IMG/VR virus record: IMGVR_UViG_3300042294_000134
Coordinates: 1 to 30,308 of that record
Source: a virus
Reading direction: 5' to 3' (one strand)
Length of the DNA stretch: 30,308 nucleotides
Below, one piece after another: positions 47-17,884 of the stretch; within the stretch, counting starts at the first letter, position 1, and each line of letters begins with the position of its first letter. The position numbers were made by a program, and so were the translations under genes. The notes under the pieces were generated by a model that worked only from the letters and a program-made list of their open reading frames with translations, did no database searches and was not told the origin of the DNA.

Positions 47-75
47 ACCCCCGGCTAATCCCCGGGGGTTTTTTT
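47..75 (+). terminator. Rho-independent terminator oriented for plus-strand transcripts
   Basis: An 8-bp GC-rich stem (47-54 pairing with 62-69) encloses a 7-base loop and is followed on the plus strand by seven T residues (69-75). This is a textbook intrinsic terminator for rightward transcription. On the minus strand, the sense strand of all genes here, the hairpin is followed by A residues rather than U, so it should not stop the leftward operon. The T-tract overlaps the TAA stop codon (74-76) of the 2094-residue gene. It probably ends a rightward transcript that starts left of the window. Confidence 0.75.
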
Positions 76-3000
76 ATTTCGCCGCTTCTCTTTCGAGCTT
101 CTCACGAGAGGATTCAAGCAACTGTTCCAAGTATGGGTAGAACTTCTTGTCCACATCAAACCCACGATCGGCCTTAGCACGCTTAGATATACGCGCTTGA
201 ACTAACTTGCTCAAATCTGCACCATCAATCCTAGCTTGTGGGTTACGCGCACCAAACGCGATTAGTTTTTCCAGTGCGTCATCAAAGGCTTCGTCATCGC
301 CTCGTGTAGCTTCTAGGTCAACACGATTAACGAGCTTGCCTTTTTCAATTATCACTTTAGCTTTAAGTGCGTTGGCTTTGAAGTTAGCTTCTTGCGCAGA
401 GGCCAAACCTGTAGTCCGTGCACCGGCTGCTTGAGCAAGTAGTTGCGCCTTTGTAAACTCTTCAGGCTCTCTAATAACCGCGCCTGTACTTGTTGTAGCA
501 CCTTCTTCGCTATACCGAACCGCAGTCAACGGCTGACGCAAAGCGGCGGGGAGAAGTCTTTCCAAGCCTTGCATGGTTTTACCCTCTTGCAGTAGCCGGA
601 TAGCTGAAGGTATTTGATTTAATGTCAAACTAGCAAACGGCCCTGCCAACGACAATGCGTATTCCCGCACTGTGTCTTCAAGAGTGCGTTGCTCTTTTAA
701 GTCTGGGAACCACATGTTATTCATCGACAAGCTATTAGACATGTTGTAGCCCGAGATAGTGTCAATCAAACCGGAGTCAATGATGTCACTGATTTTGTTT
801 CCACCAATCTGAGCTTCACCAAAGAACTCAGGAATAAACACACTGCGGAACCAGAACTCAAGGTCGCGCTCTTCTAACGGGTCTTCATCATCTTCATCGC
901 GCATTGAATTGATAATGCCTTGGATAGCACCCATAGCCGCACTGATACCCGGGACACCAACGTAGCCAGCTAACAAGCCAGACATAAACAAAGTGCCAAA
1001 CAATTGAGTAGCCGCTTCTTTCTTAGCCGCCGCATCCATACCAGCCATAGCACGATAGCCATTACGGGTTAGGTATGTAGTTACGAAAAGAGGGAAAGTC
1101 TTAAATTGCAATAGCGTACGACCGGCTGGGCCGCGCATCATGCGTGGACGGTTTTGCTCAGAGAAGTTACCAAGAGCATCGTAAGTATCCTTAACCGCTT
1201 GTTCGACCGCGTCATCAAAAGATAGTTGATTTGGCCCGGGCTTACGGCTCAAACGGAACGAGGTCATAAACATGACTTCACGGTTCAAACGCTCAACGTG
1301 GTGGAACAAGCCACCCATCATGTTAGTTGCAGTCTTCCACGCACCAGAGTATTTAGTTGACGGAGTCTTGCGGCGATCCATCAAATCATAGGCCATCGTG
1401 ATCTCACTGACACCACGGTCTGTCATTGCTTCAATAGCCCGTTGCTCTTCCTCATTCATCTTAACGCGACGGGAGTTTGCCAAGGACACTTGACTGAGTT
1501 TTCCATCTTTATCAATAACGCCGACGTCGTTGAAGACCAACATCATTTTGCCCATCTCAGCAACTACACCGGCGGGACTGTGGCGAGACATAAGGACAGG
1601 TGCGCCAAAAATAGGCAACGAAGAAAACTGAACAACAGCAGTCTTCACAGAAGTCATAAAGTACAGGAACGCTGTTTTGTTAGCAACGTTAGCCGCACCT
1701 TGCGCAAAAGAATCTACCGCAGGTGGGTAAACATCCAACTGAACACGCTCACCTAACTCGTTGACCAGCATCTCCAATTTATCTTTATCAGGGTTGCCCT
1801 TGAGACTTTCTTTGGCAGCATCAACTTCACGAAGCATTACTGGGCCGTACTTTAACCGCGAAAGTTGGTTGGCCATATTGGTGGAAGACGTAATAAAGTT
1901 GCGCAGTGCGTCACCCGAGAAACCAGCAGTGCCTTTACGATGGATAAACTGACGACGGAAACTCTGCTCCGGCATCGTAGTCAAGTACAACTGATAGATT
2001 TGATCCTTAAGCGCCTCGGCATCGACTTCACTCATGCCGTCACCAATCAACTCAAAGATTTGTTTTAGTAAAGGCGCAGTGTCGTTAGTCGTACTTTTAT
2101 CGCGCAAACCTTTTAAGTCGTTGCCGGTTTCAATATCCTCATCGGCCTTCATCTCAGACAGACTGCGGGTGTCACCTTCTTTTTGTAAGTCACGAACACG
2201 CTGACGCATAAACAATTCACGGTCGGCTACGCTCTCAAACATGTAGAACTCTTTCTTTTTGCCAGAGCCAACACGCAACCAGTAGTCACCGTAACGCATC
2301 AATGGGAAGTATGGAGATAGACCCTTAGCCGTCTCGTACATCTTCTTAATCTCAGCCATTAGCTTGCCCTTGGGTGTATCAGGGTCAGCGGCATCACCGG
2401 GGATCTTCATTGCATCTATGCGGGCATTGAGCAACAAGCGGTACAAGTCAAAGTTAGATTTATAGTAGTCGCGCACATCAACGTAGATTTCTTTGGCTGT
2501 ATCGCTCAGGCCATCCCACATCTTGTTAAGTGTAGCGTCTTTCTTGTTTGTAGCAGGGTCAATGCTCTTGTCCGTGGCGTAGTGCATCACAGCAGATAAT
2601 TCAGCAAGTTCATTCTTCTTGCCTTTAATAAGTTTGCCGTACAAACCGGGTTGTACATTAAGCCATTTGTTTACTACATCTGAAGCACCACCAAGCATCT
2701 TCATGCGCATAGCACTCATATCTTCCATTGCACGCCATGTTTTGTCCATGTGTTTAATGCCAAGATTAGTGCCCCACTCAGCCAATATGTTGGTTTGAAT
2801 AGAAGGCATCAACGCTTTTAGTTTTGTTACGTTTAGCCCGTACCACATAGACGCAAGAGTGTCCAAGAAAATCTGCGGGTCGCGTAGCTTAACCATTGTG
2901 TCAATGCCGTCGACTACATCTTGCGCTTCTTTGCTGCGCAGGATTTTTTTCTCAGCAGCGGTAATCTTTTTAGCGTTGGCGTTGGCCTTAGCTTTAGCTT

Positions 3001-6000
3001 TAGACGCAGAAACTTTCTCGCCACGACCTTCACGGACTGCGTTGGCTTTGTCAGCCTTAACAATCATCTTCATTGTCGGCGTCAGCTTAGCCGTCAAGAT
3101 TTCATCCGTAACAAGAATTAAGTCAGACAGAGCATTGATGGAGTCAAGCCCCATGCCAAGCAGTTCACGGATTGCGTCTACAAATTGGTTGAACAGACCT
3201 GTGTCTTCCTCAAAGCCATAAGCGCCCATCAGGAACTTTTGAAAATAGGGGTCGGTCATGCCGTAAGAAACAAACTCGTGCGGGTTGCTAAACACACCAG
3301 ACACAGTCTTCAGATAGTAAATATCCGTGGGCAGTTCGCCCAAGTTAGACAGTCGGTTGTACTCATCCTTTGCGTTGTTCATCACGTCAAGGAGTTTGTT
3401 GTACGCACGAGTTAACTTAGCGTCACCTGAGAACCCACGTTGAACCGCAAGAAGAGCTAGCTCAAGTTTTTGTTGCGTTGCAGCATGCAGTAACTCATGC
3501 AGTACTGTGGTGTTATTGATACCTTGGAAGTCACCCGCGCTAGAACCGCGCACGTAGATAATCTTTTCACCGGTAGCTGTGTTCTCAAAATACACACCAC
3601 GAGCACGGGAGTTGTCATTGCCCCAAGCCTCTTGATGGCGGGACAGTTGTTCTGGTAGGGGGTCGGTCTCTTCAACTACAACAAACTTAACACCATTGAC
3701 CAGTCCACGAAGGCGCTTGGCCAAGAACTTTTGCATGCCAGTTCCCGTCTTAATGACTTGACCCACAGCTTGCGCGGCGTTCTTAGCTTTCTTAAACCCT
3801 TCGTCTGCGGCTTCGACTTCTTCGTTACTTGCAGAGCTTTTGTTTACGCGCTCTTGAGATTTGTACTTGCGCCCAGCCTGCACATCGTCATAGTCTCTTT
3901 GAGAAATCTTTGTGCGATCAGCAAGTGCGGCTTTGACCCGTTTACCCAGAGCAGTACCACGGTGCTTAGTTTCCAAGTCCATCATTGCATTGATGGTGTC
4001 TCGCTTAAGCGCACGCTTCTCGTCTTGGGCAACTGTTAAATCTAAGTCGTCGGCAAACTTAGTCTCGTCAACAGGGGTAGCGGCTTCTTCCAGTTGGGTC
4101 TGAAGTTTAGGTAGAGCACGCTCGCCCTTCATGTACTCAGCACGGCCTTCGGTACGAGCTTTTTCTTTCTCCGCACGCTTCTCTTCAGTAATGTCAGCCT
4201 TTGGCCGACCACGTTGCTTGCCGGTTACTGCTCCGGCTGCTGGTGCTTTTTGTCCTTCTTCTTTTGTTTGGACGGTTTTAGGGGTCTTAGTGCCAACGTC
4301 GGCTCCTTTAGTTTCTACAAGGGTTTTCTTTGCTACTTCTCTAGCGGCATCAAGTTCATCAAGTTGTTGAATAGCAGCATCAAATTTAGCTGAAGCCTCA
4401 TTACGCTTGGCTTCTAAAGTTTTTACAGCTTCGTATTTTTTGTCTGAATCATAGTTACCGTTTTCATCAAGAACTAACGGTTTGCCATTGTCGTCTAAAA
4501 CGTCTGCTGCGCGAACACTATCTAAATCAATTAGTTTGTCTAATAGAGCCGAGCTTTCTTCGCTTGCTTCATCAAGCTGTTTAAGAAATTCATTTCGTTT
4601 TTCATAATACTTTACAGTGTCCGTTATATCTGCGTCTGTTACTGCAACGGGCTTAGCTCTTTCTCTTTCAACAGGCTTTGCAACATCCGCTCTAACAGGA
4701 ACCACTCCATCTCGTTTAGCTTCTCCAACTCCTGTGGTGGCGGGAACGTTGTCGGCTGATTGTGCAGGTAGCGCAGGGCTCTCTCCACCTGCTTTACTGA
4801 TAGGTTCTGTAACATCTTTTGCTCCCTCTTCAATAGGCGCATTTGCTTCCTCAATCTCGTTACGCGCTAGTGTAGCGGCGTCTTCGGGCATGTAGCCCCG
4901 CTTCTTGTATTTTGCTACAAGTGCTTCAAGCTCTGGGGAGGGCGCAGGTTGTACTTCTGGAGTTACTTCAGTAGGAGCAGCTTCCGATACCACCGTAGGG
5001 GGCGCAGGTTGTACCTCTGCCGCAGGTTGTTCTTCTACCGCAGGCTTCATGCGTTTAGCTAAAGCATCTTTGAGTGCTTGGCGCTTATTAACAGGAGCTA
5101 GGGGGGTTTCTTCTTCTACCGTCCATGGGTCTAAAGTAGGTTCAACTTTTTCCGTAACAGGTGCTTCAGCTTTTGGTGTTGCAGCTACACGCAGTGCGCC
5201 CATACCAGCGGTTGGGCCAAGAGAACCAGCGGCTTCGGCGAGTCCAGATTCCAAAACATCTTTGGCGGTCTCCATTGTGGCAAACTTATCGCGCTCGCCA
5301 ACATTAACTTTACCCGCAATTTGCGCGGCTTCTTGAGCGCTACCAGCTACAAACTCTTGCCCAGCTTGTTTAGGCAGTTCTTTAATAGCTTCTTTGGCCG
5401 CACCCCTACGGCCCATGCCTTGGATTGAGCTCTTAATGCCTTGCTTAGCAATAGAAGCGGCAGGGCCAAGCACTGTATCTAGTGCACCAGAAGCTACAGC
5501 AATGGCTGTGTTTACATCGTTAGTTTCTTGTAGCCTTTGAGCTACACGAGCGGCTCTTTGCTCAGGCGGTAGGGTTTGCAGTTCCTTGGCCAGTGCATCT
5601 AGACGATTGTTAACCGCCTCGGTATAACCCATACCCGTGCCGACAGTTAGCAGACCCGGTTGTTTTGCGGTAATAGCGGCAATGATAGAAGGTATAGCGT
5701 AGACAGCGCCCGAGCCAATGTTTTTAGACAGCCAATTACCAAAGTCTGCGGCGCTTTCGCTCTCTAGCACTTTCTCTTGGCGGCCTTCGTATTTCTTACC
5801 TTCACGCTTGTATTGCTCAAGTAAACCAAGAGAGGTGTTTACAAATGTTTGATCTTTGGTTAGGTCATTATTAATTGCTTGACGCAGTCGGCCACGCACC
5901 TCTGGGTTAGAGGCAAAATACATACGTGCTTGTGGGTCACGAGGTAACTCGTTAGGAGATTTAATTTCCCCTTTATCAATCTTGTCCAGCAACTCTAAGC

Positions 6001-6358
6001 GTTGGATGGTGTTACCAAGAACTTCAGCACTACCGGCTAATTTAAACTGCTCAACCGAGCTTGGGATGCCAACAGTAGCCGCGCCAACTGCGCCTTTTTT
6101 AGCTTCTTCAAGAGGAGAAAAACTTCTGTCAGGCTCCGCTTTAGGCACGGGTGGGGGCAAGAAAGGCTGAGCCGCTGGCGTTTGCTGTACTGGTTGCGCA
6201 GGTTTTACAAAACGCTCCATCTGCTGGGGCGTCATTTGTTGCGTAGGGGCAACGGCAGGGGCAGCGGCAATAGGAGTTTCAGACGCAACTTCCCAGCCAG
6301 AACTATCGGCTGCACCGACTGGAGTTTCGGAAACAACCGACCATTCGTCTTTTGCCAT
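74..6358 (-). CDS. Giant polyvalent phage protein with zincin-like HELLH motif and LPD38-like C-terminal region (2094 aa)
   Basis: This is the last complete gene of the operon. Residues 1-90 are Pro/Ala-rich and contain a doubled WSVVSETPV / WEVASETPI motif. Residues ~205-395 form a Gly/Ala-rich, partly hydrophobic module resembling one in the 1946-residue protein. Residues ~400-870 are low-complexity Lys/Glu/Ala sequence, likely disordered or coiled. HELLH lies at 954-958 in TTVLHELLHAAT, and a Glu near 1028 (NPHEF) could be the third zinc ligand. The C-terminal half, particularly ~1680-1860 (NREVMFMTSFRL, TFPLFVTTYLTRNGYRAMAG), resembles the large polyvalent protein-associated domain LPD38. 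Family knowledge: such phage proteins are multi-domain and are thought to be packaged and delivered with the DNA. Inference: an ejected virion protein with a possible peptidase activity. The start ATG follows the previous stop after one base, and an internal start is unlikely given the doubled N-terminal motif. Confidence 0.75.
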   Translation of the reverse strand: MAKDEWSVVSETPVGAADSSGWEVASETPIAAAPAVAPTQQMTPQQMERFVKPAQPVQQTPAAQPFLPPPVPKAEPDRSFSPLEEAKKGAVGAATVGIPSSVEQFKLAGSAEVLGNTIQRLELLDKIDKGEIKSPNELPRDPQARMYFASNPEVRGRLRQAINNDLTKDQTFVNTSLGLLEQYKREGKKYEGRQEKVLESESAADFGNWLSKNIGSGAVYAIPSIIAAITAKQPGLLTVGTGMGYTEAVNNRLDALAKELQTLPPEQRAARVAQRLQETNDVNTAIAVASGALDTVLGPAASIAKQGIKSSIQGMGRRGAAKEAIKELPKQAGQEFVAGSAQEAAQIAGKVNVGERDKFATMETAKDVLESGLAEAAGSLGPTAGMGALRVAATPKAEAPVTEKVEPTLDPWTVEEETPLAPVNKRQALKDALAKRMKPAVEEQPAAEVQPAPPTVVSEAAPTEVTPEVQPAPSPELEALVAKYKKRGYMPEDAATLARNEIEEANAPIEEGAKDVTEPISKAGGESPALPAQSADNVPATTGVGEAKRDGVVPVRADVAKPVERERAKPVAVTDADITDTVKYYEKRNEFLKQLDEASEESSALLDKLIDLDSVRAADVLDDNGKPLVLDENGNYDSDKKYEAVKTLEAKRNEASAKFDAAIQQLDELDAAREVAKKTLVETKGADVGTKTPKTVQTKEEGQKAPAAGAVTGKQRGRPKADITEEKRAEKEKARTEGRAEYMKGERALPKLQTQLEEAATPVDETKFADDLDLTVAQDEKRALKRDTINAMMDLETKHRGTALGKRVKAALADRTKISQRDYDDVQAGRKYKSQERVNKSSASNEEVEAADEGFKKAKNAAQAVGQVIKTGTGMQKFLAKRLRGLVNGVKFVVVEETDPLPEQLSRHQEAWGNDNSRARGVYFENTATGEKIIYVRGSSAGDFQGINNTTVLHELLHAATQQKLELALLAVQRGFSGDAKLTRAYNKLLDVMNNAKDEYNRLSNLGELPTDIYYLKTVSGVFSNPHEFVSYGMTDPYFQKFLMGAYGFEEDTGLFNQFVDAIRELLGMGLDSINALSDLILVTDEILTAKLTPTMKMIVKADKANAVREGRGEKVSASKAKAKANANAKKITAAEKKILRSKEAQDVVDGIDTMVKLRDPQIFLDTLASMWYGLNVTKLKALMPSIQTNILAEWGTNLGIKHMDKTWRAMEDMSAMRMKMLGGASDVVNKWLNVQPGLYGKLIKGKKNELAELSAVMHYATDKSIDPATNKKDATLNKMWDGLSDTAKEIYVDVRDYYKSNFDLYRLLLNARIDAMKIPGDAADPDTPKGKLMAEIKKMYETAKGLSPYFPLMRYGDYWLRVGSGKKKEFYMFESVADRELFMRQRVRDLQKEGDTRSLSEMKADEDIETGNDLKGLRDKSTTNDTAPLLKQIFELIGDGMSEVDAEALKDQIYQLYLTTMPEQSFRRQFIHRKGTAGFSGDALRNFITSSTNMANQLSRLKYGPVMLREVDAAKESLKGNPDKDKLEMLVNELGERVQLDVYPPAVDSFAQGAANVANKTAFLYFMTSVKTAVVQFSSLPIFGAPVLMSRHSPAGVVAEMGKMMLVFNDVGVIDKDGKLSQVSLANSRRVKMNEEEQRAIEAMTDRGVSEITMAYDLMDRRKTPSTKYSGAWKTATNMMGGLFHHVERLNREVMFMTSFRLSRKPGPNQLSFDDAVEQAVKDTYDALGNFSEQNRPRMMRGPAGRTLLQFKTFPLFVTTYLTRNGYRAMAGMDAAAKKEAATQLFGTLFMSGLLAGYVGVPGISAAMGAIQGIINSMRDEDDEDPLEERDLEFWFRSVFIPEFFGEAQIGGNKISDIIDSGLIDTISGYNMSNSLSMNNMWFPDLKEQRTLEDTVREYALSLAGPFASLTLNQIPSAIRLLQEGKTMQGLERLLPAALRQPLTAVRYSEEGATTSTGAVIREPEEFTKAQLLAQAAGARTTGLASAQEANFKANALKAKVIIEKGKLVNRVDLEATRGDDEAFDDALEKLIAFGARNPQARIDGADLSKLVQARISKRAKADRGFDVDKKFYPYLEQLLESSREKLEREAAK

Positions 6359-6359
6359 A

Positions 6360-8048
6360 TTATTTCACTTGTACTGGTTGACCGTTCTTAAGAGTCCAAG
6401 TTTGCCCGTTTCCAAACTTTGTTGCAACACCTTCTTTTAACTTACTTACAGGCGGCGTGCTTGAAACGGCTGGAGCGGCAGCAGGGGCTGGAGAGTCGGC
6501 AGGGGCTGGCGCATTACCTCCAGACATTACAGTTGGCGCTATTCCAAACTCATTTTTAATTTGGTTTTTAAGTTTAGCAATACCCGCCGCATATTCAGTT
6601 GGGTTCTTTTTGCGCATCTTGCGCAGGTCTGAATATTCTGGGGTGTAGTATCTTTCAAGGAATTCTTGATTGGCTTTTTCAACTTTGCTAACTTCTACAC
6701 GATTTGTACTAGCTGATTTGCTTAAACGATCTTGAGCTATATTCATAGCCCGCTTGCGTGTATTTGCGTCGTCAGGTTCGCCTTCAGCAATCAAAGCAGC
6801 TAATTCAATCTCGTAAGATGTACCCAAGTCAGTGGGTTTCTTTGCACCACCAGCGCCTTTATTTTTGGCTCTTTCTTTTGCAGATTGAATTTGAGCGTCG
6901 GCCATAATTTGGCTCTTAATAACACCAAGGTTACCGGAAAGAGCTTTACCAACAAGGTTGCTCTTAGCCACGTCCAAGTCTTTAGCAATCTTAGCCAAAT
7001 CAGAATCAAGTTTTTGTTCTGCTTTAATGTCACCACTTTTCTGAGCTTGACGCAAAGCTTGAACTTTGTACTGCGCTTCGTTAAGAAGCTCATCTACTTT
7101 AATACCTTCTTGGCGCAAGTTAGTTTCTTCGCCCATGAATTTTTCAGTAGCGTTCATGCGGCTGCGAGCTAATGCACCAATTCCACCCATACCTGTTTGA
7201 CCACGAGTTGCATCGCTGTAATCAAGCAGAGCTCTAGGCGTTATAAATTCTTTGCTTTTATCGAGGTTTGCTTGTCGTTGCGCGCGATCCGCTAATTTAG
7301 CTTCTTTTAATGAGGCGAGACCTTCTAAATAGCCTTTACCAACTGGGCCTTCATCAACGCCGTAATCTTTTCTTGCAGTTAATTCTTCTTCAATTTTTGC
7401 GGTTGAACGAACAGGACGTGCACCCGCTTTCATACGCGCTTCAAACTGAGGTTGGAGTCGGCGAAGTTCTGCTGCCGCGTCATACTCAGCGGCATTACTA
7501 AGAGTGCCTGACTCCACGCTATCTTCATCATCTTCTTCAACTTCTTGATCGCCGTCTGCACCACTGAAAGCAACAATGCCGCCTGAGCCGTACTCAAACA
7601 TGCGCGGGTCAACAGGAACACCCATCAAACCACCACCCGCCGCCATACGAACGGGTTGCGCACCTTGAGGTGCTTGTTGGGGCATTGGCTGTTGTGGTTG
7701 AGGCTGTTGTTGACGCACTGGTTGAGGAATACCGGGAGGCACTGCTCGTTGCGCGGCTCCAGCTTGCTGAGCCATTTGCTGCATACCTTGTTGCTGTTGT
7801 CCTTGCTGCAATGCACCAATACCCATACTTTGCAGGGCTTGCTTAGGTAGGCTTTCGTTTAAAGGTTCAGCAGGGGGTTGCGCTTGTTGCGTCGACTGTA
7901 TCTCTTTATTGATTTCGCTAATACGAGCAAGCGCCATAAACGGAGGCACTTGGGGGTTACCACCTTGAGCCGCTGACGTCAAATACTGGATTGACTCGGG
8001 TAAAGGGGGCAGCTTATTTAGCCTGCTTTGTACTTCCATTAAGTTCAT
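6360..8048 (-). CDS. Gln/Pro-rich, coiled virion-associated protein (562 aa), function unknown
   Basis: I do not recognise a named family. Residues ~50-130 are extremely rich in Gln, Pro and Ala. They are followed by short glycine motifs (RMAAGGGLMGV, YGSGGIVAFSG) like those in other proteins of this operon, then an acidic stretch (about 165-180). The remainder (~190-480) is charged and helical and looks coiled. The C-terminus is Ala/Pro-rich and ends in a compact GNGQTWTLKNGQPVQVK segment. The gene starts 11 bases after the previous stop, with an AAGGTGG ribosome site ahead of ATG; a second in-frame ATG three codons on is possible. Lying between the ejection-type proteins and the 2094-residue protein, it is plausibly an internal virion protein; this is inferred from position only. 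Confidence 0.65.
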   Translation of the reverse strand: MNLMEVQSRLNKLPPLPESIQYLTSAAQGGNPQVPPFMALARISEINKEIQSTQQAQPPAEPLNESLPKQALQSMGIGALQQGQQQQGMQQMAQQAGAAQRAVPPGIPQPVRQQQPQPQQPMPQQAPQGAQPVRMAAGGGLMGVPVDPRMFEYGSGGIVAFSGADGDQEVEEDDEDSVESGTLSNAAEYDAAAELRRLQPQFEARMKAGARPVRSTAKIEEELTARKDYGVDEGPVGKGYLEGLASLKEAKLADRAQRQANLDKSKEFITPRALLDYSDATRGQTGMGGIGALARSRMNATEKFMGEETNLRQEGIKVDELLNEAQYKVQALRQAQKSGDIKAEQKLDSDLAKIAKDLDVAKSNLVGKALSGNLGVIKSQIMADAQIQSAKERAKNKGAGGAKKPTDLGTSYEIELAALIAEGEPDDANTRKRAMNIAQDRLSKSASTNRVEVSKVEKANQEFLERYYTPEYSDLRKMRKKNPTEYAAGIAKLKNQIKNEFGIAPTVMSGGNAPAPADSPAPAAAPAVSSTPPVSKLKEGVATKFGNGQTWTLKNGQPVQVK

Positions 8049-8059
8049 GCTGCCACCTT

Positions 8060-8995: not shown

Positions 8996-9004
8996 AGTCG
9001 TTCC

Positions 9005-9880
9005 TTAAGCGGGTAAATGCTTGTCTGATTTGGTATCGGCAGCAATGTTTTTGGCCTTGCCACGAGCCTTCTTAATTCTGTCCATCATTGCGTATAGTTT
9101 ACGCGCACCAGCTTCTGTTGAGCCATTGCCCAGTTCAGAAACAATACGTGCTGGAATAACAAATTCACCGTCGGCTAACCGAGCGGGTTGTCTTTTACCA
9201 ATAGTAGCTGGGATGCTGTCAGACACACCATCACCGGGGCCACGGAGCAGGCGGCCACCATCGGAGTAACCACCTAAATTGGCAATACCACCACGAGCAA
9301 AGTTTTGATAGGACATGTCTTCTGTAGGCGCAGCAACAGATTCAGCGGGAGCCGTAGACGCAGGTACTGTTGCAATGCCCGTAGACGCAGGGGTTGCTGG
9401 AGTTTGAGTAGGGGTTTGGCCGGGCTTAAGATACTGCATTGGGCTGAAATACGTAACGCCACCAGAACCGGGTCGGCGGGGGATTGGTATACCCTTTGCA
9501 TCTAACATTGGAGTGCCCGCTGCATTCATCATTGAAGTTGGGATAGGCAATTGTTGACGATACGCAGTTAAAGTGGGGATACCACCTCTGTAACCACCGG
9601 GGCCTTTTTGTACATCAAAAATCTTGTCGGCTAAGTTGCCTAAGCCAGCAGCACCCAAGGTTTGTAAAAGAGGCGAATCTTTAAACAGTTTGGCGAGATC
9701 TGAGCTACTAAATAGACTGCTTTGATTTGCAATTTGAGCGTTAATACCGGCGGTAGTGCCGTCGTCGGCAACCGCGTCATTTGCATAATAGCCACCGCTT
9801 TGAAGGTAGTTATCTAGCTCTCCTTGGGAACCAGAGTCGTATCCAGTTTCACCTACACTCCAGTCAATTTCATCACCCAT
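9005..9880 (-). CDS. Phage protein with conserved GDGxSDSIPA / GEFVIPA C-terminal domain (291 aa)
   Basis: Residues ~213-273 carry GPGDGVSDSIPATI, then LADGEFVIPARIVSELGNGS and AGARKLYAMMDRIKKAR. This block recurs, from memory, at the C-terminus of many phage virion proteins encoded near tail or internal core genes; its function is unknown. The N-terminus is acidic and Gly/Tyr-rich, and the centre is Pro/Thr/Ala-rich and probably disordered. Just before the conserved block come ARGGIANLGG and YSDGGRLL, glycine motifs similar to those in several neighbours. AAGGAG lies at ideal distance from the ATG, inside the end of the 1946-residue gene, and one base separates the two genes. The protein probably works with the giant protein upstream, since genes this tightly coupled usually do. 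Confidence 0.7.
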   Translation of the reverse strand: MGDEIDWSVGETGYDSGSQGELDNYLQSGGYYANDAVADDGTTAGINAQIANQSSLFSSSDLAKLFKDSPLLQTLGAAGLGNLADKIFDVQKGPGGYRGGIPTLTAYRQQLPIPTSMMNAAGTPMLDAKGIPIPRRPGSGGVTYFSPMQYLKPGQTPTQTPATPASTGIATVPASTAPAESVAAPTEDMSYQNFARGGIANLGGYSDGGRLLRGPGDGVSDSIPATIGKRQPARLADGEFVIPARIVSELGNGSTEAGARKLYAMMDRIKKARGKAKNIAADTKSDKHLPA

Positions 9881-9881
9881 A

Positions 9882-12800
9882 TTAGGCTCCTTGCCTTACG
9901 ATTTGTTCAATTTCTTCAGGGGTCGCAGCGTTGTCACTTGACCCTTCAATCTTTTTAAGCAATTCTTCAATGTCATTTTCGTCGGTTTTGCCCTTCTGGG
10001 CAAGTGCTTCTTCCTCAATCTTTTCACCTTCAGCACCGGCTTTGGTGACGCTCAGCGCCTTGTATTCTTCTTGGTCTAACTTGCCCGACTTGCCGACCTT
10101 CTGCTTCTTAGCCCCAAATTCTTTGCCGTAGTAGAACACGTTGGCCAATTGAGGTACGCCAAAAGAACCCGCAAGTGCGGTAGCTTGAGGCCAAGTTAGA
10201 CCCGTTTGCTTGCTTGGATCCTTTGGATTCTTAGGCGGCTTAGGTGGCGGCTGTTTGGTTGGGTCACTGATAATTTTATCAATAATTGGGTCGTCTAGCA
10301 GAGTTGTAACTTTATCAATTACGTCATCATCTAGGTCGTCAATAACTTTTTCTGCGTCTTTAATATTGGGCAGGTCGGTAGTTACCTTAGTTTCGGTCTT
10401 TACTTCAGGCTCAGTCTTAACTTCTTTCTTTACTTCAGGCTCAGTCTTAACTTCTTCCTTAACTTCAGGCTCAGTCTTAACTTCTTCCTTAACTTCAGGC
10501 TCAGTTTTAATTTCTTCCTTAACTTCAGGCTCAGTCTTTAGTTCAGAAATTATGTCGGGCTTAGTTTCAGTTAATCCCGCAGTCTCTAACTCAGAAATTA
10601 CGTCAGGCTCAGTTTTAACTTCTGCGTCTATCTTAGCTTGGGCATCTGCGGCGGCTTTAACTTCTGCGTCTATCTTAGCTTGGGCATCTGCGGCGGCTTT
10701 AACTTCTGCGTCTATCTTAGCTTGGGCATCTGCGGCGGCTTTAACTTCTGCGTCTATCTTAGCTTGGGCGTCCGCTGCGGCCTTAGTATCTGCATCGGCT
10801 TTAGTTTGGGCATCCGTAGCAGCTTTAACATCTGCATCGGCTTTGGCTTGGGCATCTGCGGCGGCTTTAACTTCTGCGTCTATCTTAGCTTGAGCGTCCG
10901 CTGCGGCCTTAGCATCTGCATCGGCTTTAGTTTTAGCATCTGCGGCAGCCTTAGCATCTGCATCGGCTTTAGCTTGGGCATTTGCGGCAGCCTTAGCATC
11001 TGCATCGGCTTTAGCTTGGGCATCTGCGGCGGCTTTAGCATCGGCCTTTGTTTTTGCAGCAGCAGCATCTGCATCGGCTTTAGTTTTAGCATCCACAGCA
11101 GCTTGGGCATCTGCATCGGCTTTAGTTTTAGCATCCGTAGCAGCTTGGGCATCTGCATCGGCTTTAGTTTTAGCATCCACAGCAGCTTGGGCATCTGCAT
11201 CGGCTTTAGTTTTAGCATCCGCAGCAGCTTGGGCATCTGCATCGGCTTTAGTTTTAGCATCCGCAGCAGCTTGGGCATCTGCATCGGCTTTAGTTTTAGC
11301 ATCCGCAGCAGCTTTAATATCTGCGTCTATCTTAGCTTGAGCGTCTGCGGCAGCCTTAACATCTGCGTCTATCTTAGCTTGGGCATCTGCGGCAGCCTTA
11401 GCATCTGCATCGGCTTTAGTTTTAGCATCTGCAACGGCTTGGGCATCTGCATCAGCTTTAGTTTTAGCATCTGTAACGGCTTGGGCATCTGCATCAGCTT
11501 TAGTTTTAGCATCTGTAACGGCTTGGGCATCTGCATCAGCTTTAGTTTTAGCATCTGTAACGGCTTGGGCATCTGCATCAGCTTTAGTTTTAGCATCTGC
11601 TGCGGTTGTATCTGAAATTACGCTTTCAAGAGTACCATCTTTAGTATCAGTTAGTCCCGCAGTTTCTAAAGTAGTAACAACATCGTCTTTAGCCTCACCT
11701 TCGGTCTTAGTCTCAGACAGCCCCGCAGTTTCTAAGGTAGTAACAACATCTGATTTGGCATCCACCGCAGCCGCAGTTGCTTTTGCGTCTGTAGTAATAG
11801 CGGTTTCTTTAGCCTGCAACCCAGTCAAATCACCGATTGTTAAGGGTTTACCATCACTTGCAGTTCCAATAACTACGTCTGGTTGGACTTTAAAGTCCGT
11901 ACCTTTACCTGTTACGCTAGAACCAAGCACGTCACCAACTGTGACCGCGTTGCCGTCTGTGTCAAAACCAACAGGCGCATTTAAATTATCAACGCTAAAC
12001 TTAGTATCTTCGCTGCCATTTTTGGTAAGGTTATGAACAACCGCCTCGGCCACAACAGTATTAGCAACCGACTGAGCTTGGGCAGGGTTCATGCCTGCGT
12101 CTTGCATCGTAGCTGCAATCTGCGTACCGGCGTCTGACAAGTTTTTGGTATTGGCAAGAGTGCTTGCAACTTGAGTCTGTAAGTCGCCCGCTTTATCGCC
12201 AGCAACAGAGTTAAGTATTTCAGAAGAAGCCGCTTGTTCTACTTTGCTAAGCGCCATCTCACCTAATTGGATAGAGGCTACAGTGTGTCCAGCAACCGCC
12301 ATACCCGCAGTTGCGCCAGTCAAAATGTTGTTTACGTTAACCTTGCCGGTAGCAAAGTAGTCTTCAAAACCTTGAGCCCCGCCTTCTTCTACATATTCTA
12401 GCGGCATCTCTTTAGCCGCTGATTTACCTACTGTACCAAGAGTTGTCTTTTGAACTACGTCACCCGCAGCCCGCTTAATAAACGGAGCATCAACAATAGG
12501 GCCAAGCACCGCAGCTACGGTAGCGGTAGCAACAAATGCTTTTTGGCCAGCGGCATGCGCGGCTTCTTCACTCATACCGGCTTTTTCGGCTTTAGCTACC
12601 GTGCCGTTATACCCTGCGCCACCAGCTTCGATTCCGTTAACAATAGAGTTAGCAGCAAAGCCAATTAGTTTGCCGCCCCACTTAGCCGCACTTGCACCAG
12701 TTAAAATTGGAATAACTTCTTGGATACCTTCTTTAACTACGGTGTAGCCAAAACCAATTGGGTTGTTAATAATTGCAGAAGGCAGTGCTTTTAATTTAGC

Positions 12801-15722
12801 GCCAGCATCTGGCCAGAAATTTCCAGTATTACCAGCTTTAGCAATCTCAGTTATAAACCCTTGTTCTTGATCTTGCGCTTTGGTACTAACGTTATTTGCT
12901 CCATAGGAAGTCAAACCATTTGCCATGCCCGCAAGTAAGCTGTTTTTGCCAATAGCCCCGCTAGCCTTAAGCGTCCCTTCAAGAGCAGATGCTTGTTCAC
13001 CCAAAGCCCCGGATACCGTGCCGGTAACATTTTTAAATACCGATGTAATAGCACTGTCGGATTCTTCAGCCGACAACTTGGCAGTTCTGTTCTGCGCAGC
13101 GAGTCTTGCGGTTTCCGCCGTCGATTGGTTAGGGGCGTTACCTAGTACTAAAGAATTATTTAATGCTGTTAAACGCCTAATTTCCGCAGAAGATTGATTA
13201 TCCAAACCAGATAGTTTGTCTGCCGCAGCTCTTCTTGCCGCAGTATCACCCTGTGCTGCAACTGTACTGGATGCGTCAGTTACTGTAGATAAGTTAGATG
13301 CGTTTAAGGCATCAAGTGCTTTATCTCCTGCGGTAATGTTTAGATCTGGACGCTCTTCTTTTGTAGCGGTGCTAAAGCTTTCTACTTTACCTGTCTTGGG
13401 GTTTAACCAATCAAATGTTTTATTTGCGCCAAGTTCTTTACGTGCCAGTGCATACGCATCATTAAAGCTACTGCTAGTTTTAATCGTATCCCGCAGTTGG
13501 TCGTTTGCGGCGTTTCTATCTTGTGCGCCTTTTAGGTCACCAAACTCAGTATCAATAAGCGTACTAGCGTCTGTAAGAGTTTTTGCAAGCGCATCCGCAC
13601 CGCCGAGGTTTAATGTGTCCGGGGTTGTAACTGCATCGCTACCAATAGACGAAACAACATCTTTATTGGCAAGGAGTGAGGTAATAGTGTCGGCATCTGT
13701 TGCAGCATTGCCGTCTACTAACCCAGCTTTAGTTAGCGTATCTTCTGTGTTTGTATCTAGGCTTCCAGTTGTGCCTTTAGCGTCGGCAATAGCTGAATTG
13801 GCCGCAGAGATAGCGGTATTGATAACAATCTGATCCAGTGGTTTACCTGAAATCACGCCTGTTACGGCATTGGTAACCATCTTCTTTTGGTTAGCGGTTA
13901 GGTCGCCAAACCCTTCAATATTACCTAAGAGCGAATTAACAGCACCGTTAACACCACCGGTAACAAAACCTCTAGTCATGGCTTCGCCAACATCTTGGCC
14001 ACTAAGCAGCGCAGTGCCAGCAGAAACCGCAGCGTTTTGGAAAGAGTTAGTTAGCGTGTTTGTAAGTTCTGTTGACAGCCCAAGGTCTTTAATAAACGAA
14101 GCGCCATCTGACATGAAATCCATACCAGGGATTTGAGCGCCAGCAAAACTAATTGCAGCGCTTTTAATTGAATCACCAAGGTCTTTACCGCTTAAAACGT
14201 TTACAGCTAAATTAGCCGCAATCTGTTGAGGTATAGACAAACCACCCGTAGCAATAGCCAAACCAATTTGACCGATTGGGCCAAGGTCTGCCATAAGATT
14301 TGCTAAATCATTAGACGATGCACCAGTGGTGTAAAAGATTGGCGTTCCATCAGGGGCAAATTGAACTCGATAACCTGTGTTACCTTTACCTGCAAACGTG
14401 CCGCCAAACGCATTTCCTGTTTGACGTTCACTGTATGTATTAGGGACAGCTTGGCCTGTTTCTTTGTTACCAAATGTTTTTTGCCCTGTATCAACTACAG
14501 GTTTGCCGTCTACTATTTTTACTTTTGATGTGTCAACGGCATCGTAGCTTTCACCATTAGATACCCCGTAAAGCGTTTCAATTTTTGCGTCTTTAGGTAT
14601 TGGCACGTATTGACCGATTCCGTTGCCATCACTGTCAAATTGACCAGTGCTTTGATATACCGCATTTCTAATTTCGCCATCGCCAAGGTCAATTTTGACA
14701 ACTTGGTTTCCGTTATACGTTTTACCAATTTCTTCAACGGGCGCTAAAAGAGGAACCTCACCAAACTGTTTAATGTCTGTAATGCCAATACCGGTCAAAA
14801 TCTTAGCCATGTCAGCAGCATTAGCTTGAGCTGATCCATGCCCTTGACCCTGCCATTTGTCGGTTAGTCCTTGCCCAAGAATCTGTTGGGTCAATGTGGT
14901 AGTGGCAGCAGACCCGGTATCCGCAAGCACGTTACCTGACGCATTAACGATTGTGCCAGTAGTAGTTAGATATGTACCGTTCTTTAAATCAACCGCATTT
15001 TGCACTTCTGGTGGAGCAATTGTAAAAAGCGGGCCACCCAAACCTTGGTTCGCTGGCTTAAGTCCAAGAAAATCTATATCTTTTAATCCTTCTTCTATTT
15101 CTTTTATTTGTTCAGGAGTTAAAACTATTTCAGGCTCAACTGCTGCAACTTGGGTTGTGTCCGCAGTTGTTTGTGTTGTACCTACAAGATTAGGAGCCAA
15201 CGCTGTTTGTTCTTCTTTAGTTTTAGTGGCGAGTTCTGCTTTAGCTGCTTGCAAAAAGTCAGCTTTTTCCGACTCATCTACAGTAGGCCCAAATGCGTTT
15301 TCCCAGAATGCCTTACCACCTGCATCTGATGGACGGCCAAGAATGGTTGTGTACAAATCTTCTACCGTCATAGTAGATTCAGGAATAGACGCAATGTAGT
15401 CGTCTACTATGTCAGTAGTTTTTGCGGCGGGAATTTCAACAGCGGCGGGAGTTTGAACGGCGGGAGTTTCAACAGCGGCGGGAGGTTGAGCGGCGGGAGG
15501 TTGAGCGGCGGGAGGTTGAGCGGCGGGAGGTTGAGCGGCGGGAGGTTGAGCGGCGGGGGCTTGAACGGTGGCTGGTCGATACGGGGCAAAGATGCCAACA
15601 ATATCACTATCAGATAACCCCATACCTTTAAATTGCATAACTAAGTCGTTGGTAGCATCCCGCCCACCAAAAACGTCATACACGTCTTCATAAGCATTAG
15701 AAAAATTTGTTGGTAATGCCAT
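9882..15722 (-). CDS. Giant virion protein with DUF4214-like domain, hydrophobic modules and TolA-like repeat helix (1946 aa)
   Basis: Order of parts: a short N-terminal helical domain (1-45); five to six PPAAQ repeats (about 55-83); a DUF4214-like segment (about 120-160, VEDLYTTILGRPSDAGGKAF); a Gly-rich block (about 290-480) with WQGQGHG, NTYSERQTGNAFGGT and GKGNTGYRVQFA that I recall from other large phage proteins; hydrophobic Gly/Ala stretches (about 490-620); a second hydrophobic module (about 985-1157); a very regular 14-residue Ala/Asp/Lys repeat region (about 1373-1700); KTEPEVKEE repeats; a PPPKPPK linker; and a charged C-terminus. Inference: an internal or ejection protein, with hydrophobic modules entering a membrane and a rigid helix spanning a long distance, somewhat like T7 gp15/16 in role but without visible homology. 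No catalytic motif was recognised. The ATG lies nine bases after the previous stop and its ribosome site is weak, suggesting translational coupling. Confidence 0.75.
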   Translation of the reverse strand: MALPTNFSNAYEDVYDVFGGRDATNDLVMQFKGMGLSDSDIVGIFAPYRPATVQAPAAQPPAAQPPAAQPPAAQPPAAQPPAAVETPAVQTPAAVEIPAAKTTDIVDDYIASIPESTMTVEDLYTTILGRPSDAGGKAFWENAFGPTVDESEKADFLQAAKAELATKTKEEQTALAPNLVGTTQTTADTTQVAAVEPEIVLTPEQIKEIEEGLKDIDFLGLKPANQGLGGPLFTIAPPEVQNAVDLKNGTYLTTTGTIVNASGNVLADTGSAATTTLTQQILGQGLTDKWQGQGHGSAQANAADMAKILTGIGITDIKQFGEVPLLAPVEEIGKTYNGNQVVKIDLGDGEIRNAVYQSTGQFDSDGNGIGQYVPIPKDAKIETLYGVSNGESYDAVDTSKVKIVDGKPVVDTGQKTFGNKETGQAVPNTYSERQTGNAFGGTFAGKGNTGYRVQFAPDGTPIFYTTGASSNDLANLMADLGPIGQIGLAIATGGLSIPQQIAANLAVNVLSGKDLGDSIKSAAISFAGAQIPGMDFMSDGASFIKDLGLSTELTNTLTNSFQNAAVSAGTALLSGQDVGEAMTRGFVTGGVNGAVNSLLGNIEGFGDLTANQKKMVTNAVTGVISGKPLDQIVINTAISAANSAIADAKGTTGSLDTNTEDTLTKAGLVDGNAATDADTITSLLANKDVVSSIGSDAVTTPDTLNLGGADALAKTLTDASTLIDTEFGDLKGAQDRNAANDQLRDTIKTSSSFNDAYALARKELGANKTFDWLNPKTGKVESFSTATKEERPDLNITAGDKALDALNASNLSTVTDASSTVAAQGDTAARRAAADKLSGLDNQSSAEIRRLTALNNSLVLGNAPNQSTAETARLAAQNRTAKLSAEESDSAITSVFKNVTGTVSGALGEQASALEGTLKASGAIGKNSLLAGMANGLTSYGANNVSTKAQDQEQGFITEIAKAGNTGNFWPDAGAKLKALPSAIINNPIGFGYTVVKEGIQEVIPILTGASAAKWGGKLIGFAANSIVNGIEAGGAGYNGTVAKAEKAGMSEEAAHAAGQKAFVATATVAAVLGPIVDAPFIKRAAGDVVQKTTLGTVGKSAAKEMPLEYVEEGGAQGFEDYFATGKVNVNNILTGATAGMAVAGHTVASIQLGEMALSKVEQAASSEILNSVAGDKAGDLQTQVASTLANTKNLSDAGTQIAATMQDAGMNPAQAQSVANTVVAEAVVHNLTKNGSEDTKFSVDNLNAPVGFDTDGNAVTVGDVLGSSVTGKGTDFKVQPDVVIGTASDGKPLTIGDLTGLQAKETAITTDAKATAAAVDAKSDVVTTLETAGLSETKTEGEAKDDVVTTLETAGLTDTKDGTLESVISDTTAADAKTKADADAQAVTDAKTKADADAQAVTDAKTKADADAQAVTDAKTKADADAQAVADAKTKADADAKAAADAQAKIDADVKAAADAQAKIDADIKAAADAKTKADADAQAAADAKTKADADAQAAADAKTKADADAQAAVDAKTKADADAQAATDAKTKADADAQAAVDAKTKADADAAAAKTKADAKAAADAQAKADADAKAAANAQAKADADAKAAADAKTKADADAKAAADAQAKIDAEVKAAADAQAKADADVKAATDAQTKADADTKAAADAQAKIDAEVKAAADAQAKIDAEVKAAADAQAKIDAEVKAAADAQAKIDAEVKTEPDVISELETAGLTETKPDIISELKTEPEVKEEIKTEPEVKEEVKTEPEVKEEVKTEPEVKKEVKTEPEVKTETKVTTDLPNIKDAEKVIDDLDDDVIDKVTTLLDDPIIDKIISDPTKQPPPKPPKNPKDPSKQTGLTWPQATALAGSFGVPQLANVFYYGKEFGAKKQKVGKSGKLDQEEYKALSVTKAGAEGEKIEEEALAQKGKTDENDIEELLKKIEGSSDNAATPEEIEQIVRQGA
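10402..10540 (-). repeat. 30-bp coding repeat (KTEPEVKEE, five copies)
   Basis: The segment AACTTCAGGCTCAGT recurs every 30 bases, about five times, within the 1946-residue gene. It encodes alternating KTEPEVKEE/KTEPEVKEV decapeptides. The repeat is highly charged and follows directly after the Ala/Asp/Lys helix region. Copies differ by a few bases, which indicates tandem duplication followed by divergence. Confidence 0.9.
10621..11606 (-). repeat. 42-bp coding repeat array encoding a 14-residue Ala/Asp/Lys periodic helix
   Basis: About 23 tandem units of 42 bases lie in the 1946-residue gene. Two flavours occur: DAKTKADADAQAVT (mostly 11060-11600) and DAQAKIDAEVKAAA (mostly 10621-10780 and a few others), with mixtures between. 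The unit length equals two heptads. Composition is almost only Ala, Asp, Lys, Thr, Gln, Val and Ile, so a long continuous helix or coiled coil is expected. The four units nearest the promoter-proximal end (about 11430-11600) are nearly identical in DNA sequence, pointing to recent expansion or gene conversion. Confidence 0.95.
15475..15564 (-). repeat. 15-bp coding repeat (PPAAQ), five perfect copies plus one variant
   Basis: The 15-base unit GCGGCGGGAGGTTGA (plus strand) repeats perfectly five times from 15475 and once more with changes. It encodes a proline/alanine/glutamine linker near the N-terminus of the 1946-residue protein. Such perfect short repeats are prone to copy-number change. 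The likely role is a flexible spacer between the N-terminal domain and the DUF4214-like segment. Confidence 0.95.
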
Positions 15723-15731: not shown

Positions 15732-16001
15732 TTAAGATGTTTTTATTCGCAGCATCTGGCTGGTATCTTGAACACCGTCTTGTGTGTCTCGATAGACATC
15801 ACCCAATCTTAAGTTGGGTAAATCTGCTTCTGTTGGAAGCGTTGTTAAGTTAATGTTTAACCGCGCAATGTTGATTGGTTGAATAGCGTTTAAACGTTGA
15901 AAGAACAAATTCAACACGTTCAACATCTGACCCATATAGGCTGCTTCATATTCTGGCGGTGGAGCCGGTAAACGCGGCGGAGATTCTTGCATAAAACTCA
16001 T
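15732..16001 (-). CDS. Small conserved phage protein with PTEADLPNLRLGDVYRD motif (89 aa)
   Basis: The protein starts with a Pro-rich tail (SPPRLPAPPPEYEAAYMGQM), followed by an amphipathic helix (LNVLNLFFQRLNAI). The C-terminal block is PTEADLPNLRLGDVYRDTQD. I recall this block from short proteins encoded next to tail genes in aquatic phages; its function is unknown. The ATG overlaps the stop of the nozzle-like gene (ATGA), so the two are translationally coupled. There is no signal peptide or membrane segment. A minor structural or assembly role linked to the tail tube is an inference from position. Confidence 0.7.
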   Translation of the reverse strand: MSFMQESPPRLPAPPPEYEAAYMGQMLNVLNLFFQRLNAIQPINIARLNINLTTLPTEADLPNLRLGDVYRDTQDGVQDTSQMLRIKTS

Positions 16002-17884
16002 GAGTTACCCCTTCTGCCGTCTTGTTTGATGTCGATACGGGGTGAACCCAACTGCCAAGCGCACCCAAGCTGGTTAGATTCAACTTGAATAATCATCTGA
16101 CGGCCTCGCACCCTAACATAGACTTGACCGGTAAACTGTTCAATCACGGAAGTAGATGTTCGGATTACAGTGGCCGTAGAATTACCACCTAAAGAAATAG
16201 GATCGTTATACCCAGAACCTGAGTTTTGCATAGGAATTAGCGTCATTGTGACTTGTGGCGAAGCGGCATTTGATCCACGGAATGTAATGTCTGGAAGCAT
16301 TCTCCAGACAAACCCAAAGTGATCGCCGTCATCAATGTCAAACTCAGCAGAACCAATAACAGCATTGATAGCCGCAGGAGTTCCTGTTTGATTGTCATCG
16401 TTACCTTGCTCATGGTTAACAAGGTTATAGGAATAAGTTGCCGCTAACGGAAAATCACGCAAACCAGAATCCAACCAAGCTGTACGGCCTAATGTGCCGT
16501 ATGCCCATACATCTTCCAAGTAGTTATACGTTACATAAAGGTCAATCTCATTGCTATTGGCAGAGCAGTAGAACCACCAAGCTTCGTTAAAACCTTCGTT
16601 TGTCCCCGCAAACACCTGTGCGGCTTGAGCAGTATTAATGTCTTGGAAAATATATTGCTTAAGGTCACAACGCAAAGTCTGCACACGGCCATCGTATTTG
16701 TAGAATTTGTCTACGCCCATCCAATACACTACGCCAGAGGCCAAACATACTGCGTTAGGGCCAATAATTGAAACGTTATCGCCAAGTAGTTGAGAAGACC
16801 AAACCACGGGTGGCCCAACGTATTGAAGTGAATATATGGCTGAATCTGTAAACACCACAATCTCTTGACGAGCTTGGATGGCGGTGACAATCTCAGAACC
16901 GTGCGACAACTGTAAGCTACCCGCTTGGTTTGTGATGGCAGGGGTCCAAACAAGAATGCTCTCTTGGTCAGACCAGCGAATTAACATGGGGTTTAGCGTA
17001 GATGAACTGTAGTCATCGCAACCAAACGCAAACACAAAACGGCTTGCGTCAGACACAAATACAGACAAAACCACAGAAGGTGTATCTGCGTCTGCTCCCA
17101 TAATGCTAGATACCAACACACCCCGTGACGTTACACCAGTTCCTGCATCCCAATAATACAAAGCACCCCCACGGGGGTTGAAGATTAAGTCTTCTCCAAA
17201 GTTACTTTGACTCCATAGGCGAATGGTACTTATAGATGTTCCGCCAGTACCCCAAACACCAGAACCCCAAAAGCCAGCACCCCAACCAACCAAAGGAACT
17301 GCAATAGCTGGGCCGGTATTAATTTGATACGCCGCCGCCACCGAAGCTCCACCACCGGGAGATCCTGAAACATCTGTGGCATTTGCCGTAGCTGTAACTG
17401 TAATCGTGTACGAGTTAACGCTAACAAAAGTAATTTGATATTCAGCATTTAATACATCAGCCGTGATATTGCCGCCAAGCCCAACAGCACCGCTGAAAGT
17501 AACAAAATCGCCCGTTATGCCACCGTGACCTGTATCTGTAACAGTGATAACTGCCGACCCATTTGTAGCTACAAAAGGATTAGTGTTAATTGTGCTGGTT
17601 GCGCGAATAGGGGTGATGTCGTTATAAATACCACCTTGTTCAATGTAAAACTTTAAATTAGTTCCAACACCTACAAGGTTTAACCCACCGAGGGTAATCC
17701 AGTTCCACAAAGAACGACAAACGCCTTGGAATATAGCACCAGAAATACGTACCCAACCGCCAATTTTCTCAGGCGTACCTTGCCGAAACCGCATCTTATC
17801 GGATACATACCAACCGTTCTCATTGGTATATCTGGTGTTTTCTTTGTTTACACCCGGCTTCAGTAATAGTTTTTTTAAAGGCAT
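15998..17884 (-). CDS. Putative tail nozzle / packaged-DNA stabilisation-type protein (628 aa)
   Basis: This large beta-rich protein opens with LLLKPGVNKENTRYTNENGW and VSDKMRFRQGTPEKIGGW, and continues with many Trp-containing strands (RLWSQSNFGEDLIFNPRGG, MGVDKFYKYDGRVQTLRCDL, YNYLEDVWAYGTL). That pattern is typical of short-tail tube or nozzle propellers such as P22 gp10 or T7 gp12; I infer this fold, as no diagnostic motif can be proved by eye. Residues ~95-190 look like an inserted small beta domain (GDFVTFSGA...EYQITFVSVNSYTITV) common in phage structural proteins. It starts eight bases after the endolysin stop with an AGGA ribosome site. It would cap the tail tube and retain packaged DNA together with the adaptor and connector-like proteins encoded upstream. 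Confidence 0.65.
   Translation of the reverse strand: MPLKKLLLKPGVNKENTRYTNENGWYVSDKMRFRQGTPEKIGGWVRISGAIFQGVCRSLWNWITLGGLNLVGVGTNLKFYIEQGGIYNDITPIRATSTINTNPFVATNGSAVITVTDTGHGGITGDFVTFSGAVGLGGNITADVLNAEYQITFVSVNSYTITVTATANATDVSGSPGGGASVAAAYQINTGPAIAVPLVGWGAGFWGSGVWGTGGTSISTIRLWSQSNFGEDLIFNPRGGALYYWDAGTGVTSRGVLVSSIMGADADTPSVVLSVFVSDASRFVFAFGCDDYSSSTLNPMLIRWSDQESILVWTPAITNQAGSLQLSHGSEIVTAIQARQEIVVFTDSAIYSLQYVGPPVVWSSQLLGDNVSIIGPNAVCLASGVVYWMGVDKFYKYDGRVQTLRCDLKQYIFQDINTAQAAQVFAGTNEGFNEAWWFYCSANSNEIDLYVTYNYLEDVWAYGTLGRTAWLDSGLRDFPLAATYSYNLVNHEQGNDDNQTGTPAAINAVIGSAEFDIDDGDHFGFVWRMLPDITFRGSNAASPQVTMTLIPMQNSGSGYNDPISLGGNSTATVIRTSTSVIEQFTGQVYVRVRGRQMIIQVESNQLGCAWQLGSPRIDIKQDGRRGNS

Follow-up and report, generated by a model that had tools for sequence, protein, structure and literature searches.

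The window, as the whole stretch of DNA analysed is called here, is a virus record of 30,308 bases. The ORF under study (the target) is carried on its minus strand together with the following features:

9882..15722, minus strand: target ORF, 1946 aa, no cysteine
15429..15572, minus strand: PAAQP repeat, N-terminal, residues 51-98 of the target
14319..14891, minus strand: beta-rich domain, residues 278-468, predicted with block pLDDT values mostly of 78-88
13743..14318, minus strand: Gly/Ala helical part, residues 469-660, the best-conserved part of the middle domain
11703..13541, minus strand: a second conserved stretch (residues 728-1340) that many of the longer orthologues share
10617..11600, minus strand: array of 14-residue units, residues 1375-1702, 23.4 units in two registers
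10359..10613, minus strand: segment of Glu/Lys/Thr/Val/Pro repeats that follows the array, residues 1704-1788, for the most part predicted to be disordered
9885..10154, minus strand: C-terminal tail, residues 1857-1946, common to seven aligned relatives

The following genes surround the target:

15998..17884, minus strand: P22 gp10-like stabilization (head-closure) protein, the upstream neighbour, with PHROG and phage-record matches and no Pfam match
9005..9880, minus strand: partner gene, 291 aa
8060..8995, minus strand: 311-aa protein with a weak match to the PHROG 'DNA ejection protein' (E 1e-4)
6360..8048, minus strand: cassette protein of 562 aa, cysteine-free and without a family match
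74..6358, minus strand: 2094-aa polyvalent protein, LPD39, with a DarB-like PHROG

The C-terminal tail of the target contains the sequence NVFYYGKEFG and ends in EEIEQIVRQGA. A search of the target protein against PHROGs gave no family match. The hydrophobic Gly/Ala modules described in an earlier note on this DNA are present, but they are only weakly hydrophobic, with a best 19-residue Kyte-Doolittle mean of 1.73, and the first stretch of the protein above the threshold is at residue 1059. The structure model of the middle region was of low confidence (pTM 0.28), and the fold matches are weak for this reason. The best match in the PDB had an E value of 0.68, VIA-align gave a best Z of 5.6 with unrelated proteins tied, and the T7 tunnel 7k5c scored a Z of 3.2. 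Two uncultured-phage proteins were matched in BFVD (E 2e-4 and 5e-4, TM-scores 0.09-0.15), one with an LT_GEWL name and the other uncharacterised. No ejection protein stood out in the PDB, VIA-align and BFVD searches with this model.

Gene neighbourhood and cysteine content

Relatives of the target were gathered by two scans of viral contigs, using residues 405-660 of the middle domain as the probe. One scan confirmed 183 relatives, of which 80 were kept. The census comprised 119 proteins (118 loci and the window), which were reduced to 63 non-redundant and then to 37 complete proteins; L054 (a phage record) and the later found L127 and L150 were left out. A gp10-like gene was found upstream of the target orthologue in 61 of the 62 non-redundant relatives, the exception being L051. 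The partner was a separate downstream gene in 22 of the 62, and in five complete relatives (L073, L097, L108, L114 and L116) its C-terminal module was fused to the end of the target orthologue. No partner match was seen in the other 35, and many contigs end before the partner site.

The 2094-aa polyvalent protein is a probable injected payload. Judged from gene order and family matches, the gp10-like gene, the weak ejection match and the polyvalent protein form the arrangement expected of ejection genes with a payload, and the target occupies the slot after the gp10-like gene among them. The ejection-type surroundings pointed out in the earlier note were in this respect borne out, and all five genes of the cassette lack cysteine. 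Large size and an almost complete lack of cysteine are shared with gp14/15/16 of T7 and gp7/20/16 of P22, and the slot after a gp10-like gene is shared with P22; however, the target has no sequence match or convincing fold match to these proteins. To our knowledge, such a repeat spacer is not found in the ejection proteins of T7 and P22. Phage DSL-LC04, a complete record from lake water, is also similar in layout: a 759-aa 'tail tape measure' protein without cysteine lies downstream of a gp10-like gene, with two genes between, and at its C-terminus this protein shows 41% identity to part of the partner (9005-9880). DSL-LC04 differs in having one ORF where the window has two, and its 759-aa protein has no long Ala helix.

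Two further upstream proteins of the window, at 24559-25398 (E 6e-19) and 26243-27178 (E 2e-6), matched the Pfam family SU10_adaptor; SU10 is described as a short-tailed phage (PMC9509320). The motif [YFM]A.GG was found seven times in five of the 23 window proteins (6360-8048, 9005-9880, 27178-28329, 29009-29281 and 29285-29749), with 1.04 occurrences expected and a maximum of 6 in 500 shuffles. Besides the window protein there are 36 complete orthologues, and in nine of these the motif was likewise located at most 24 residues from the end. A scan of genome contigs for relatives gave 220 pattern stretches, none of them confirmed, and thus yielded neither a named host nor a prophage. The gp10-like relatives belong to phages of Gammaproteobacteria, Roseobacter, Pelagibacter, Pseudomonas and cyanobacteria, and because of these hosts the host of the present virus would be of the Gram-negative type.

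The five-gene cassette (74-15722) contains no cysteine in 5204 residues, where 38.4 would be expected from the other 18 window proteins (30 cysteines in 4066 residues). A similar depletion was observed in T7 gp14-16 (1 in 2261 residues, 26.0 expected), P22 gp7/20/16 (0 in 1309, 13.4 expected), the P-SSP7 counterparts assigned by synteny (1 in 2282, 22.2 expected) and the slot genes of DSL-LC04 (0 in 2766, 16.1 expected), and a weaker one in HTVC023P (4 in 1900, 20.1 expected) and CRP-902 (1 in 2037, 9.3 expected); the comparison genes were hand-picked, as were, by position, the ejection genes of DSL-LC04, HTVC023P and CRP-902, and some small genes were omitted from both sets. In nine relatives the target and all listed downstream ORFs of at least 200 aa were free of cysteine. 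By the yardstick of T7, P22 and P-SSP7 set here, the cassette shows the cysteine depletion of ejection genes. The depletion is not specific to ejection proteins, because the scaffold proteins of T7, P22 and P-SSP7 share it; the P22 needle and four window proteins outside the cassette are likewise without cysteine. The literature searches made here, which covered open PMC papers, gave no description of cysteine depletion in ejection proteins.

Among the complete orthologues, 32 of 37 have no cysteine. The remaining five have 18, 26, 4, 24 and 68, all even counts and all after the domain, and Cys-pair repeats, in which the paired cysteines are often 11-14 residues apart, follow the domain in L026, L031, L080, L093 and L047. 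The even counts are as expected of disulphide pairs. Since these cysteines are even in number and placed after the domain in otherwise cysteine-free proteins, these proteins may meet an oxidising place.

The array and its predicted shape

The tandem repeat of about 23 units of 14 residues reported in the earlier note was confirmed. The array consists of 328 residues, or 23.4 units, with a lag-14 identity of 0.84, compared to 0.27 ± 0.02 (maximum 0.34) in 2000 shuffles. Its composition is A147 D64 K50 T20 Q20 V13 plus I, E and N; Ala makes up 45% and the charged fraction is 0.36. In the DNA the array is a 42-bp tandem repeat of 10.2 + 12.8 copies, and a register slip at about residues 1550-1558 splits it into two blocks. 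With two registers, the array is not a single continuous helix. The full array was present in seven near-identical contigs, with 328 residues in five and 314 in two (L002 and L006), which have exactly one 42-bp unit fewer, copy numbers being those of the assembled contigs. An antisense ORF of 325 aa on the plus strand (10638-11615) overlies the repeat and looks like a by-product of it, the frame probably being kept open by the repeat.

Ala and polar residues alternate strictly in the array, with a moment at 180° of 0.68 (range 0.68-0.77) compared to 0.13 for shuffled sequence. At 100-103° the moment was 0.16-0.17 and that of the shuffled sequence 0.15, indicating that there is no seam. A coiled coil was consequently rejected, since the heptad hydrophobic seam is absent. 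Opposite charges were found at i,i+4 in 82 pairs (20.9 ± 3.8 in shuffles) and like charges in one, and there were no i,i+3 charge pairs. The mean helix propensity was 0.28 kcal/mol in the array versus 0.59 kcal/mol elsewhere in the target protein. The near-absence of like i,i+4 pairs in the window may reflect one motif that was copied. Permutation of the charge order gave weak P values of 0.07 and 0.03 for the window units, a strong one (0.0005) for the Ala-helical spacer of L022, and uninformative values of 0.33-1.0 for four short-period arrays. Codon variants among units lean synonymous, with rough omega values of 0.44 and 0.29 for the two window blocks and 0.31 for L022, and some selection on the peptide can therefore be argued.

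AlphaFold2, run on residues 1300-1946 together with seven relatives, predicted two helices of 188 and 144 residues (1362-1549 and 1559-1702), and the break between them coincides with the register slip. Block pLDDT values were mostly 78-88 in the first helix and about 64-76 in the second, and the stretch after the second helix was mostly disordered. AlphaFold2 favours helix in Ala-rich repeats, and the predicted helix alone is for this reason modest support. Of the checks proposed in the earlier note, structure prediction returned a helix and the coiled-coil test found no seam; the expected continuous helix of about 330 residues was recovered as a long helix, but in two pieces. Single alpha-helix (SAH) domains have in common with the array a network of opposite charges at i,i+4 and the lack of a hydrophobic seam. 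The array differs in being Ala-rich (45%) and 36% charged, in using Asp and not Glu, and in lacking the i,i+3 pairs and the mainly Arg/Glu/Lys charges of such domains. With its strict alternation and missing seam, the array is therefore no coiled coil, and it is not a charged single helix of the canonical kind either.

The earlier note had also compared the periodicity to that of TolA domain II, and this did not hold. The alternation moment of E. coli TolA domain II is 0.19 (shuffle 0.15) versus 0.68 in the array, and the pattern is absent there. Searched with the array alone, the NCBIfam TolA model TIGR02794 scored 36.8 bits, below the cut-off of 59.45, and PRK09510 scored 18.6 of 213; no TolA row was obtained with the full target protein against TolA profiles. 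Homology to TolA was rejected, as unrelated MSCRAMM SD-repeat adhesin models outscored TolA on the array. PDB sequence matches of the array were dismissed as low-complexity chance. None of the 23 window ORFs regarded as genes matched a Tol or Pal family in Pfam, as neighbours from a tol-pal operon would. The SHLS motif has the exact spacing S-x3-H-x6-L-x3-S, and this pattern was absent from the first 200 residues of the target, which contain no His either. In TolA, the motif is reported from an N-terminal transmembrane helix (PMC12204202). What the array shares with TolA is its composition.

Spacer exchange among orthologues

The middle domain is conserved across the orthologues while the spacer sequence is not. 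At the spacer site of the 37 complete orthologues an Ala-helix was found in 3, of which two are the window and its near-copy, a Pro-rich segment in 12, an Asp/Thr/Lys segment in 4 and a Thr/Asn/Ala segment in 5. The other 13 have no low-complexity spacer, defined as a segment of at least 50 residues starting at least 120 residues past the domain, and in five of these the Cys-pair repeats stand in for it (few in L047). Of the five Thr/Asn/Ala spacers, three contain at least 200 helix-like residues. In 24 of the 37 orthologues a spacer was kept that measures 90 residues or more (range 90-565). A short acidic/hydrophobic C-terminal motif ends 27 of them, and five of the ten that lack it are the partner-fused orthologues.

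The closest relative, L008, has 88% identity to the target over residues 239-1375 and 98% within the probe, and its spacer is a DTKQDVDTKPDAKL repeat where the window has the helix. Other spacers consist of TDTKLDTKAD (L010 and L013), PTQPTT (L018), (TP)n (L044), (EP)n (L023 and L029) or NPNV (L042). An Ala helix of 470 residues is found in L022. Its units share up to 38 of 42 bases with those of the window, so that exchange between phages is possible, and convergence of the two is not claimed. On a tree of 49 rows, made by a quick method with 14 rows of unknown spacer excluded and some long branches unsure, the spacer type changes at least 15 times, and the sister rows L020 and L022 differ. 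Shuffled labels (200 shuffles) gave a mean of 24.2 changes and a minimum of 20 versus the 15 real ones. Spacer type is therefore partly inherited and its exchange is not random.

An Ala-rich helical segment was also seen ahead of the domain in 7 of the 63 non-redundant rows. In the N-terminal part of the L018 orthologue (L018:7680-12074), residues 222-361 make up a GDSL lipase/esterase domain. A search with a DNA pattern coding for KAAADAQAK..DA also led to a protein of 1413 aa in other phages (L128:4602-8843 and relatives), which has no PHROG match and contains a KAAADAQAKADAE helix similar to the array. Among the neighbours of this protein, two gave matches to tail, head-closure, internal-virion and similar families and the others gave none; such Ala-rich helices are therefore present in at least one further structural cassette of phages.

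The four helix-bearing spacers were longer than the 17 others, with medians of 467 and 262 residues (one-sided P 0.0024, in a test that ignores kinship and from which the near-copies L006, L045 and L114 were dropped). Converted to an estimated contour, assuming 0.15 nm per residue for helix and 0.31 nm per residue for the rest, the values became 91 and 81 nm (P 0.35). The coefficient of variation shrank little, from 0.42 in residues to 0.37 in contour. Estimated contours ranged from 28 to 148 nm across the orthologues, most of them well beyond a periplasm. The similar reach is a hint only, because the spread shrinks so little, the rows are related, the spans of the window, L006, L033 and L072 are interrupted or take in a second segment, and most of the lengths exceed a periplasm.

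Proposed role of the spacer

The array is best explained as this phage's own form of a long spacer that can be replaced, carried by a protein of the ejection apparatus in a phage with a short tail, a reading to which we assign a probability of about 0.5. Exchange at one site, the one-unit difference between contigs, the gp10-adjacent slot, the SU10 adaptor matches, the fusion of the partner, the cysteine-free cassette, the predicted helix with its opposite charges at i,i+4 and the similar estimated reach of helical and other spacers all point to this reading. Against it stand the 13 of 37 complete orthologues without a low-complexity spacer, the partly inherited spacer type, the cysteine-free scaffolds, the widely varying lengths and the lack of a weighty ejection match in the fold searches. 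The stronger part of the reading, that the array is a spacer in an ejection protein, is judged probable; the weaker part, that the spacer bridges the periplasm, is put forward tentatively.

The target protein would be present in the virion, and it probably leaves the virus with the DNA. The spacer would hold the middle domain and the C-terminal module apart and would pass the tail channel, for which any soluble, extended and easily threaded sequence should therefore serve. In the window, an alternating Ala-rich helix carrying i,i+4 salt bridges would fill this role. Use across the periplasm during DNA entry would be likeliest, in the manner of the unrelated domain II of TolA and TonB. A function specific to the helix appears weakened, because close orthologues carry Pro-, Thr- or Asp/Lys-rich spacers.

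The spacer could instead act before ejection, as a tether or tape measure inside the particle that joins the middle domain to a tail docked on the portal, core or scaffold. The resemblance of the downstream module to the C-terminus of the DSL-LC04 'tail tape measure' protein fits such a role, the short C-terminal tails (in 27 of 37 complete orthologues) have the look of docking peptides, and low cysteine is common to scaffold proteins. A length of 90-565 residues among those complete orthologues that have a spacer suits no ruler, however, and the five orthologues with even cysteines (4-68), all after the domain, suggest an oxidising place. A tether is considered unlikely.

Still less likely is a filler without mechanical role, in which repeats grow by replication slippage in a tolerant loop. 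The 42-bp repeat, the length change of one unit and the frequent change of spacer type, though below the level of shuffled labels, are what slippage would produce. Against a filler speak the synonymous lean of the unit variants, the retention of a spacer of at least 90 residues in 24 of 37 complete orthologues and the near-absence of like i,i+4 charges (1 versus 82), although in the window this last feature could stem from one copied motif (P 0.07 and 0.03).

Surface proteins often have Pro/Thr-rich and Cys-rich repeats, and the L018 orthologue with its N-terminal GDSL domain would suit a protein on the outside of the tail whose spacer presents surface-active modules to the host. Such an adhesin part is improbable given the gene position after gp10, the cysteine-free cassette with its polyvalent payload and the lack of any PHROGs family match for the target. 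Ionic self-assembly of the alternating Ala and charged residues into sheets like those of EAK16 and RADA16, favoured by the strict alternation and by the beta-sheet spectrum reported for the D-form peptide d-EAK16 at 25 °C (PMC2387071), is very improbable in view of the i,i+4 charge pairing, the good helix propensity and, allowing for the leaning of AlphaFold2 mentioned above, the predicted helix.

The reading as a replaceable spacer in an ejection protein draws on the domain II of TolA and TonB for comparison. Helical TolA domain II is reported to be prevalent mainly in gamma-proteobacteria, with Pro-rich forms elsewhere, and an equal reach costs helices more residues, as seen for TolA versus TonB (PMC12204202). 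Exchange of the TolA, TonB and disordered domain II left the swapped forms with partial function, and the disordered one gave poor colicin import and did not stabilise the outer membrane (PMC10666116). The phage spacers are alike in having an Ala/charged helix in one form and a Pro-rich sequence (Glu-Pro or other) in another at the same site, in having more residues in the helical versions (PMC12204202, PMC10666116) and in their tandem-repeat length, which varies in number of repeats in tolA too (PMC3477136). They differ in that the array has no detected homology, shows the strict alternation and lies in a phage gene. By this analogy, the phage spacer resembles TolA/TonB domain II in behaviour, without kinship. 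The same searches of open PMC papers gave no account of the target protein, nor of any phage virion protein with a TolA-like spacer.

More speculatively, the short-tailed phages of this group may bridge the host periplasm with a spacer open to replacement, whose evolution resembles that of domain II in TolA and TonB, selection keeping reach and solubility and not sequence or fold. Ala-helix, (EP)n, (TP)n, Asp/Lys/Thr and disulphide-paired repeats would then interchange at a single site, and the cassette around it, free of cysteine, would be built for passage through an oxidising compartment. For few systems have structures settled how a phage crosses a periplasm that is wider than its short tail is long, and a family with many natural spacer swaps around a kept middle domain is a ready experiment on what such a spacer requires. 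If it holds more generally and can be distinguished from the low cysteine of scaffold proteins, the near-absence of cysteine in proven ejection proteins would provide a simple marker for ejection genes of phages known only without culture.
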